From positions 1 to 64,000 of the forward strand of contig JAIOPI010000024.1 in the NCBI GenBank assembly GCA_021413965.1: a DNA stretch of 64,000 bases, read 5' to 3'. The notes beneath the pieces were generated by a model that was not told the origin of the DNA, did no database searches, and saw nothing but the letters and a program-made list of their open reading frames with translations. Position numbers and translations under genes: made by a program. Positions 61,762 through 63,804 of this stretch are shown here, piece by piece. The number at the start of each line of letters is the position of its first letter. Within the stretch, counting starts at the first letter, position 1. Source of the DNA: Lentisphaerota bacterium. Lineage in GTDB: Bacteria; Verrucomicrobiota; Kiritimatiellia; UBA8416; JAIOPI01.

Positions 61762-61907
61762 ACTCAGTCCTCCAGTCGCGCTTCGATATCGCAGTATACG
61801 CATTGACGGCCAAAGGCGCAGCCAATTCGACGATCGGTAATTCTGCTTGAAGCCCCCTTTTGGAGGCGCTAGGCTATTGCACTCAGATACCGGAATTGGA
61901 ATTGCAG
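61762..61907. promoter_or_regulatory. Divergent promoter region with putative leuA leader promoter
   Basis: TTGAAG (61847-61852) and TAGGCT (61870-61875) are separated by 17 bases and would start a transcript about 25 bases before the leader ATG at 61908. The -10 is a weak match. The remaining spacer serves the divergent DUF4019 gene. Confidence 0.35.
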
Positions 61908-62006
61908 ATGAACCCGACCGCCATGATCAACGGCAGCGCAGCCCGTGCACCCCTCGGACGAGGGCTACGGCTCGGCCTACTCATGGGCGGCGGGTGCGTC
62001 CTCTAG
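61908..62006 (+). CDS. Leucine-rich leader peptide of the leuA attenuator
   Basis: A 32-codon frame (starts MNPTAMINGS) with six leucine codons. Five fall within codons 16-25 (CTC, CTA, CTC, CTA, CTC), including two CTA codons expected to be rare in this GC-rich genome. A sixth immediately precedes the TAG stop. It overlaps the 5' arm of an antiterminator and lies just upstream of a terminator, the arrangement of a LeuL-type leader. It carries no strong ribosome binding site, though GGAATTG precedes the ATG. It is inferred from layout, not from similarity. Confidence 0.65.
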   Translation: MNPTAMINGSAARAPLGRGLRLGLLMGGGCVL

Positions 62007-62063
62007 CCCGGACTGGTTGACACCCGCATCCGCTGCCCGCAAACACCGGTCGGCGGATTTTTT
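61986..62063 (+). promoter_or_regulatory. Leucine transcription attenuator (antiterminator/terminator switch)
   Basis: Segment 61986-61997 (GGCGGCGGGTGC) can pair over 12 consecutive positions, with two G-U pairs, with 62026-62037 (GCATCCGCTGCC). The alternative is a terminator in which ATCCGCTG (62028-62035) pairs with the CGGCGGAT side (62051-62058), followed by six T (62058-62063). The shared segment 62028-62037 makes the two structures exclusive. A ribosome finishing the leader covers 61986-61997 and favours termination. A ribosome stalled at the first leucine codons leaves it free and favours read-through. Confidence 0.65.
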
Positions 62064-62155
62064 GTGCCCGCATCCCGCCGCCAGGCCCAGAGGAAGGCAC
62101 CGGACCATCGCGCGGGCAATCGATTGCCGCCATGATTTGCAGAAGGGTTGGAAGA

Positions 62156-62241
62156 TTGGCCGCCAGAAAGCCAAGCAAGCGCAGCATGGTCGACGCCCTC
62201 GTCGGTCAGCTTTTGTGCCTTTTGTGCGTTTTCGCGGCCAA
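62156..62241 (+). repeat. Degraded GxxExxY-element inverted repeats without a gene
   Basis: An arm at 62156-62189 and an arm at 62210-62241 are reverse complements at about 20 of 32 positions. The right arm resembles the right repeat of the GxxExxY element at 58151-58183 (about 23 of 32). Only 20 bases lie between the arms, so this looks like a remnant or MITE-like copy inserted between the leuA attenuator and leuA. Confidence 0.5.
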
Positions 62242-62262
62242 CTCCGCTTGAAGGAGACCGTA

Positions 62263-63804
62263 ATGAGTGAACGGGTTTATGTGTTTGATACAACGCTGCG
62301 CGACGGCGAACAGGCCGCCGGCAGCCGCCTGGACGTCCGCGAGAAACTGGACATCGCGCACCAACTGGCGCGCCTGAACGTCGACATCATCGAGGCGGGC
62401 TTCCCGCAATCGTCACCGCAGGATTTCGAGGCCGTGCGCATCCTCTGCGCCGAAATCCAGGGGCCGGTGATCTGCGCGCTGAGCCGCGCCGTGCTGCCGG
62501 ATATCGACAAGTGCGGCGAGGCGCTGCGCGGCGGCACACGCACGCGCATCCATACCGGCCTGGGCGTTTCCGACGTGCACGTCATGGGCAAGTTCGGTGA
62601 CGCCAAGTACGGCACCACCCTGGCCGCCAAGAAAGCCAAGCTGCTGGACATGGCCATCAAGGCCGTGCGCCATGCCAAGGGCTACACCGCCGATGTGGAG
62701 TTCTATGCCGAGGATTCCGGCCGCGCCGACCGCGCCTTCCTCTTTGAAGTCCTGCAGGGCGTGATCGAAGCCGGGGCCACGGTACTGAACATTCCGGACA
62801 CCACCGGCTATGCCGTGCCGGAACAGTATGGCGCGCTGATCCGCGATATTCGCGTGCACGTGCCCGGTGCCGCCGGCGTCACCGTCAGCGCCCACTGTCA
62901 CGACGACCTGGGCATGGCCGTGGCCAACTCGCTCGCCGCCGTGGCCAACGGCGCGCGCCAGGTCGAGGGCACGATCAACGGCATCGGCGAACGAGCCGGC
63001 AATGCCGCCATCGAAGAAGTCGTCATGGCGCTGCGCACGCGCGCCGACGTCTTCGGCGTCGAGACCGCGATCAACACGCGCGAGTTCTGCCGCACCAGCC
63101 GGATGGTGGCGGATGCGTTTCACATGACGGTGCCGCCCAACAAGGCCATCGTCGGGCCCAACGCGTTTGCCCACAGCTCGGGCATCCACGTCGACGGCGT
63201 CCTGAAGCAGCGCGAGACCTATGAGATCATGAGCCCGGAGGACGTGGGCGCGCAGGAGAGCCGCGTCGTGCTGACCGCGCGCACCGGCCATCACGGACTG
63301 AAGCACCGCCTGGAGAAGCTGGGTCACCGCCTGAGCGAGACGGAACTGGACCGCGTCTACCAGCGCTTCCTGGTGGTGGCGGACAAGAAGCGCGAGGTGT
63401 TCGACGAGGATCTGAACGCCATCATCCGCGACGAGATTCACCCCGTCCCCGAGACGTTCCGGATGGAGTACCTGAATACGACGGCGGGCACGGGCACGAT
63501 TCCCACCGCCACGGTGCGCATCCGCCGGGGGGCACAGGCCACCCAGCAGGCCGCCTGCGGCGATGGGCCGATCGATGCCGCCTACCAGGCCATCTCGGCC
63601 GCAACCGGCATCGAGGTCAAGCTGACGGGCTACGACATCCGCGCCGTGTCCGCCGGCAAGGATGCCCTCGGCGAGGTGACCGTCCGGCTGGAGCCCGCCA
63701 AGGGCTCGGCCGTGCTCGGCCGCGGCGCGTCCACCGACATCATCGAAGCCAGCGCCCGGGCCTACCTGGACGGCCTCAACCGGATCGTCGCGGAACAGGG
63801 CTGA
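62263..63804 (+). CDS. leuA: 2-isopropylmalate synthase
   Basis: Condenses 2-oxoisovalerate with acetyl-CoA, the first committed step of leucine synthesis. The 513-residue protein has the DRE-TIM motif TLRDGEQAAGS (about 10-20), HCHDDLGMAVANSLAA, and the GERAGNAAIEE signature. A C-terminal LeuA allosteric domain starts near residue 400 and would bind leucine. The start ATG at 62263 follows AAGGAG, and a long upstream frame runs through the attenuator without coding signs. It is preceded by the leucine leader and terminator, so transcription attenuation probably controls it. Citramalate synthase is less likely given the full-length C-terminus. Confidence 0.92.
   Translation: MSERVYVFDTTLRDGEQAAGSRLDVREKLDIAHQLARLNVDIIEAGFPQSSPQDFEAVRILCAEIQGPVICALSRAVLPDIDKCGEALRGGTRTRIHTGLGVSDVHVMGKFGDAKYGTTLAAKKAKLLDMAIKAVRHAKGYTADVEFYAEDSGRADRAFLFEVLQGVIEAGATVLNIPDTTGYAVPEQYGALIRDIRVHVPGAAGVTVSAHCHDDLGMAVANSLAAVANGARQVEGTINGIGERAGNAAIEEVVMALRTRADVFGVETAINTREFCRTSRMVADAFHMTVPPNKAIVGPNAFAHSSGIHVDGVLKQRETYEIMSPEDVGAQESRVVLTARTGHHGLKHRLEKLGHRLSETELDRVYQRFLVVADKKREVFDEDLNAIIRDEIHPVPETFRMEYLNTTAGTGTIPTATVRIRRGAQATQQAACGDGPIDAAYQAISAATGIEVKLTGYDIRAVSAGKDALGEVTVRLEPAKGSAVLGRGASTDIIEASARAYLDGLNRIVAEQG

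Follow-up and report, generated by a model that had tools for sequence, protein, structure and literature searches.

In the leu attenuator of enterobacteria (Rfam RF00512, Leu_leader), a Leu-rich leader lies 5' of leuA together with an antiterminator and a terminator that have a segment in common. Similarly, in the ilv, trp and his attenuators of Proteobacteria and Actinobacteria, the position of the ribosome on the cognate codons picks the hairpin. The actinobacterial LEU element is a pseudoknot in which the Leu codons of a leader 5' of leuA are paired to the leuA Shine-Dalgarno sequence, and the authors of that study doubt classical attenuation (PMC1262725). For a long time, descriptions of leader peptide attenuation were confined to Proteobacteria and Actinobacteria, until hisS/hisZ of Firmicutes were added (PMC2965389); ribosome-mediated attenuation of branched-chain amino acid genes is also reported for Listeria (PMC5864092).

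In this study, we analyzed a stretch of bacterial DNA of 64,000 nucleotides (the window), for which an initial annotation had proposed a leucine attenuator. Our analysis suggests that the region upstream of leuA is very probably a classical ribosome-mediated transcription attenuator controlling this gene. The features of the region, and the corresponding leader of a relative of the same genus (L004), are as follows.

61908..62006, + strand: leader peptide ORF of 32 codons, translation MNPTAMINGSAARAPLGRGLRLGLLMGGGCVL, stop codon TAG at 62004-62006
61953..61982, + strand: control Leu codons, CTC at 61953, CTA at 61965, CTC at 61971, CTA at 61977 and CTC at 61980
61985..61998, + strand: segment 2, 5' arm of the antiterminator, within the leader tail; 14 bp with 62025-62038; kept in L004
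62025..62038, + strand: segment 3, shared by the antiterminator (3' arm) and the terminator (5' side); CGCATCCGCTGCCCGCA, identical in L004
62028..62063, + strand: predicted intrinsic terminator, stem 62028-62039 / 62047-62058, T run 62058-62063
62263..63804, + strand: leuA, 2-isopropylmalate synthase, with upstream Shine-Dalgarno sequence AAGGAG; NCBIfam TIGR00973 and NF002086
L004: leader peptide homologous to that of the window, MKTPHTAGSHAARRLRTSLTLRLRKGSGRVL

Translation of 61908-62006 bore out the claimed leader of 32 codons with five Leu in codons 16-25, two of them encoded by CTA. In all, the peptide contains six Leu (codons 16, 20, 22, 24, 25 and 32), which are clustered rather than consecutive, one Val and one Ile, and the leuA downstream is single. 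CTG accounts for 59% of the Leu codons in eight long ORFs of the window and for 30 of the 36 in leuA, and is absent from the leader. CTA makes up 1.3% of the Leu codons in the same eight ORFs, yet it occurs twice in the leader. Similarly, 35 of the 37 Leu codons in leuA of L004 are CTG, with none in the leader. By eye, the Shine-Dalgarno sequence of the window leader is weak, and a simple scan found no sigma-70-like promoter; like the scattered order of the Leu codons, both count against attenuation.

The antiterminator had been read as a pairing of 12 positions (61986-61997 with 62026-62037). These positions do pair, two of them as G-U, and folding lengthened the stem to 14 bp (61985-61998 with 62025-62038). 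The fold of 61983-62040 has a calculated energy of -34.5 kcal/mol (z -3.8), and none of 200 shuffles was equally good. Folding also recovered the terminator with six T that had been noted, and placed it at 62028-62063; its stem (62028-62058) has an energy of -16.1 kcal/mol (z -2.6) and the T run occupies 62058-62063. Because both folds need 62028-62038, antiterminator and terminator are mutually exclusive. The coordinates likewise agree with the masking geometry that had been described, in which the antiterminator arm lies inside the leader: the stop codon begins 5 nt past the end of the arm at 61985-61998, and the control codons at 61965 and 61971 are 14-20 nt 5' of the arm. A comparable placement of arm and control codons recurs in relatives, in most of the 31 sequences described below. 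Upstream of segment 2, folding gave local hairpins but no strong pairing with segment 2 itself. A second terminator-like copy in the same genome (C19) lies within an NtrC-like ORF and was dismissed as chance.

In the proposed mechanism, RNA polymerase would transcribe the leader with a ribosome following. When leucyl-tRNA is ample, the ribosome would proceed to the stop codon at 62004-62006, where we take it to cover approximately 61985-62016, and segment 2 would be covered. Segment 3 would then pair with segment 4, the terminator would form, and transcription would end before leuA. Under a shortage of leucyl-tRNA, it would instead stall on the rare Leu codons within 61965-61979, 5' of segment 2, leaving this segment free to pair with segment 3, so that no terminator would form and leuA would be transcribed. 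A ribosome stalled at 61965 or 61971 would leave segment 2 free, and one at 61977-61982 would leave it partly free. Upstream pairing would shield segment 2 only weakly when no ribosome is present, so that read-through should be the default for a leader that is not translated, which counts against the mechanism. The relative stability of the two folds leads to the same expectation, because by the energies above the antiterminator is the stabler one; ribosome-free RNA would be expected to read through, and a ribosome at the stop codon would be needed for the off-switch.

The initial annotation had staked its reading on conservation of the leader and stems in relatives, and the locus passed this check. 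L004, whose LeuA is 85% identical to that of the window, keeps the leader, both arms and the terminator, and it keeps the Leu positions by different codons. Between the first control Leu and the stop codon the two leaders align without gaps, with Leu 16, 20, 22, 24 and 32 in common; the codons at these positions (window/L004) are CTC/TTG, CTA/CTT, CTC/CTT, CTA/CTT and CTC/CTC. The LxxxLxLxL spacing is conserved, and not one non-Leu residue is kept within codons 16-25. The arms GGGCrGCGGGyGCG and CGCATCCGCTGCCC are also kept, the terminator of L004 is a hairpin of its own with seven T, and arms and terminator form a conserved island between the two upstream regions. The window type of leader was found in only two genomes of the genus; leuA is absent from the incomplete assemblies of another member of the genus and of one member of the family.

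Within the class, 80 upstream regions of leuA were surveyed by scanning short ORFs for Leu per 10 codons. At least five Leu in 10 codons occurred in 21 of the 80 regions, whereas shuffles predicted 1.1 and the reverse strand gave 1; at least four occurred in 40, for which shuffles predicted 6.7. The same scan of the 80 regions gave no excess for Val or Ile and a much weaker excess for Arg and Ser than for Leu, and as a control the scanner also recovered the known enterobacterial leu leaders. In at least 8 of the 80 regions, an IlvN-like tail was seen by eye directly 5' of leuA. In these cases leuA lies within an ilvBN-leuA operon, so that no leader is expected directly before it.

An automatic search yielded 31 sequences with a leader and a terminator 21-40 nt past the leader stop, including the window, L004 and one Planctomycetota locus. 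The antiterminator arm in these sequences lies mostly in the leader tail, the common form being GCGGTGGG in the tail, then CCCACCGC, then GCGGTGGG followed by T6. All three elements are altered together in L142 (GCGATGG / CCATCGC / GCGATGG) and in L121 (GGCGGGA / TCCCGCC / GGCGGGA). Register shifts spoiled column-by-column covariation with fixed registers, and a swap test was used instead. Segment 2 gave a mean of 11.2 with its own segment 3 and of 9.2 with swapped ones, and 0 of 20000 permutations were as good (p = 5e-5), in a test that ignores kinship between the sequences and in which several single sequences show no preference for their own partner. As a separate observation, the string CTTAG (the Leu codon CTT plus AG) recurs in leader control regions of both phyla (L090, L092, L107, L118, L121, L141, L142, L149, L151, L152 and L165, and in Phycisphaerae L007, L010 and L014).

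Single parts of such an arrangement do arise by chance in GC-rich DNA: among 1500 dinucleotide shuffles of 61804-62262, a leader this Leu-rich (at least 5 Leu in 10 codons) appeared in 7 and any terminator in 304. However, the two were combined at a spacing of 10-60 nt in none of the 1500, the arrangement is kept in L004, and its layout is matched across the class. Together with the class-wide Leu enrichment and the swap test, these results leave a fortuitous combination of leader and hairpins with a negligible probability, and we regard that explanation as already refuted.

The leader might, on the other hand, be an independent small RNA or short gene that ends in an ordinary terminator, and leuA would then be transcribed without attenuation from its own promoter in the 200 nt past that terminator. 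The gap between terminator and leuA is about 200 nt in the window and is not conserved, and promoter-like sequence lies just 5' of leuA in Phycisphaerae relatives, both of which would suit this arrangement. Nevertheless, it leaves unexplained that Leu is kept through synonymous change, that there is an antiterminator arm, that the arrangement recurs upstream of leuA in many families, and that a leader precedes ilvB in ilvBN-leuA operons; moreover, in several relatives the terminator ends less than 60 nt from leuA. We consider it unlikely. A leader that senses leucine might also act by way of Rho-dependent termination or of leuA translation, as variants that have no U-run could suggest (those of Phycisphaerae, and those of Spartobacteria, which lie about 50 nt away from the start of leuA). 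In the window and L004, by contrast, the hairpins carry six or seven T and are exclusive of the antiterminator, and the leuA start of the window is 200 nt away, which makes such a route very unlikely here.

In favor of ribosome-mediated transcription attenuation, which is the reading we prefer, the control codons follow operon content, with Val/Leu before ilvB and Leu before a lone leuA. In the ilvBN-leuA operons of members of the order, a Val/Leu-rich leader precedes ilvB, for example in G009 (MNSVNTIVTLSTVAVVLVLRVLVLRLVPVRVAMGGSFH). In G008, which belongs to the same genus as G009 and has leuA and ilvB on different contigs, the homologous leader is found before leuA (MNSIHTIVTVSAAAVGLLLRVLVLRLRAVRVRMGRGSR), and several positions occupied by Val in its kin are Leu here. 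Val/Leu-rich leaders with terminators were also noted 5' of ilvB in L181, L182, L184, L186, L187, L189, L192 and L193, where ilvB is mostly just upstream of leuA. The ilvB genes of the window genome and of its same-genus relative have no such leader, and no His leaders were found before hisG in the order.

The leuA gene of the window is the only full-length copy in its genome and stands alone, with a convergent downstream neighbor on the opposite strand. Its product scores 641.5 bits with TIGR00973 (cut-off 598.7) and 696.1 with NF002086 (cut-off 532). In the LeuA tree, the genus clusters (100/100) with Phycisphaerae, Acidobacteriota and one MAG labelled Desulfobacteraceae, apart from the LeuA of its own class. 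Given this placement, leuA of the genus was probably acquired horizontally, in a probable replacement by the Phycisphaerae/Acidobacteriota type. Mis-binning is unlikely, since L004 also carries this kind of leuA, at 85% identity. LeuA had hinted at a Planctomycetota host, but this was overruled by RpoB, which is 67-69% identical to that of Spartobacteria and 46-52% to that of Planctomycetota; in the other named phyla tested, identity to the best main stretch did not exceed 58%. Judged by these identities, the host is a member of Verrucomicrobiota.

A second short ORF (62132-62251) lies just 5' of leuA and has five Leu in ten codons and a repeat-like CTTTTGTGCCTTTTGTGCG string; strings like it are also present upstream of leuA in L014 and L009. 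This ORF was not counted as a leader, as it has no counterpart in the upstream region of L004 and contains a repeat-like CTTTTGTGCC string.

Leaders of related kinds were also observed elsewhere. Aquisphaera-type Planctomycetota (L042, L043 and L047) have Leu leaders; an automatic terminator test was positive for L042, and a hairpin with a T-rich tail was seen by eye in L043. In the LeuA tree, L009 is the weakly supported (84/77) sister of the window and L004. Its leader has six Leu within ten codons and, as judged by eye, is accompanied by a perfect terminator stem of 11 bp with a T-rich tail. Phycisphaerae have a conserved Leu-rich leader that ends in LLGLSLLLRRLAQ or similar and has no U-run. 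In L007, L008, L010, L011, L014 and L017-L020 of this group, the leader lies 100-350 nt 5' of leuA and has a GCGCC...GGCGC hairpin where it ends; in several of them a TATAAT-like box is found only about 8 nt before the start codon, which would suit a leaderless transcript. In the Spartobacteria L044, L050 and L052, the leader ends in LLLLAL or similar about 50 nt 5' of leuA, and the hairpin near the ribosome-binding site perhaps points to translational control.

Taken together, we think it rather likely that ribosome-mediated attenuation of branched-chain amino acid synthesis is widespread, and so far undescribed, in Verrucomicrobiota and Planctomycetota. Its control codons would change from Leu to Val/Leu, or back, according to whether the leader precedes leuA alone or ilvBN-leuA, and leaderless-looking, U-tract-free and Shine-Dalgarno-proximal variants would occur in Phycisphaerae and Spartobacteria. 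If so, attenuation, of leuA and ilvB in Verrucomicrobiota families and of leuA in Planctomycetota, would reach another deep bacterial branch. It would also imply coupled transcription and translation in those lineages, and would provide a natural experiment on the change of control codons once a gene leaves its operon.

The covariance model of RF00512 gave no match in the window at its gathering cut-off or at E up to 5, as compared to 53-118 bits for control loci from Yersinia, Proteus and Buttiauxella, and the T-box family of Rfam gave none at gathering or relaxed thresholds. Rfam as a whole returned nothing credible at either threshold for the window and the Verrucomicrobiota relatives tested; hits to NsiR1 in the window (E 0.32) and to S4-Bacteroidia in L010 (E 0.17) were both far below gathering and were rejected. 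The initial annotation had regarded the lineage as new ground for such attenuators. This view probably stands, as the host is placed in Verrucomicrobiota by RpoB and no leader-peptide attenuator on leuA has been described in this phylum in Rfam or in the literature searched, with most subscription papers outside its reach.

The locus nevertheless resembles described systems in its parts. It has the layout of the enterobacterial leu attenuator, but the sequence of its leader differs and its leuA stands alone, in contrast to the leuABCD operon. It agrees with the ilv, trp and his attenuators in the proposed role of the ribosome, whereas it belongs to another phylum and a clear segment 1:2 pause hairpin was not seen in the window. 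The LEU element, compared by its description, likewise has a Leu-codon leader 5' of leuA; the intrinsic terminator of the window and its 200-nt gap before leuA argue against identity with this element. Like the leader peptide attenuators of Firmicutes at hisS/hisZ and, as reported, at the branched-chain amino acid genes of Listeria, the locus would represent attenuation outside Proteobacteria and Actinobacteria, but it differs from them in phylum and sequence. On sequence evidence, the locus is very probably a genuine leucine attenuator, one of a widespread set, with a mechanism that is known in kind and a phylum that is apparently new to it.
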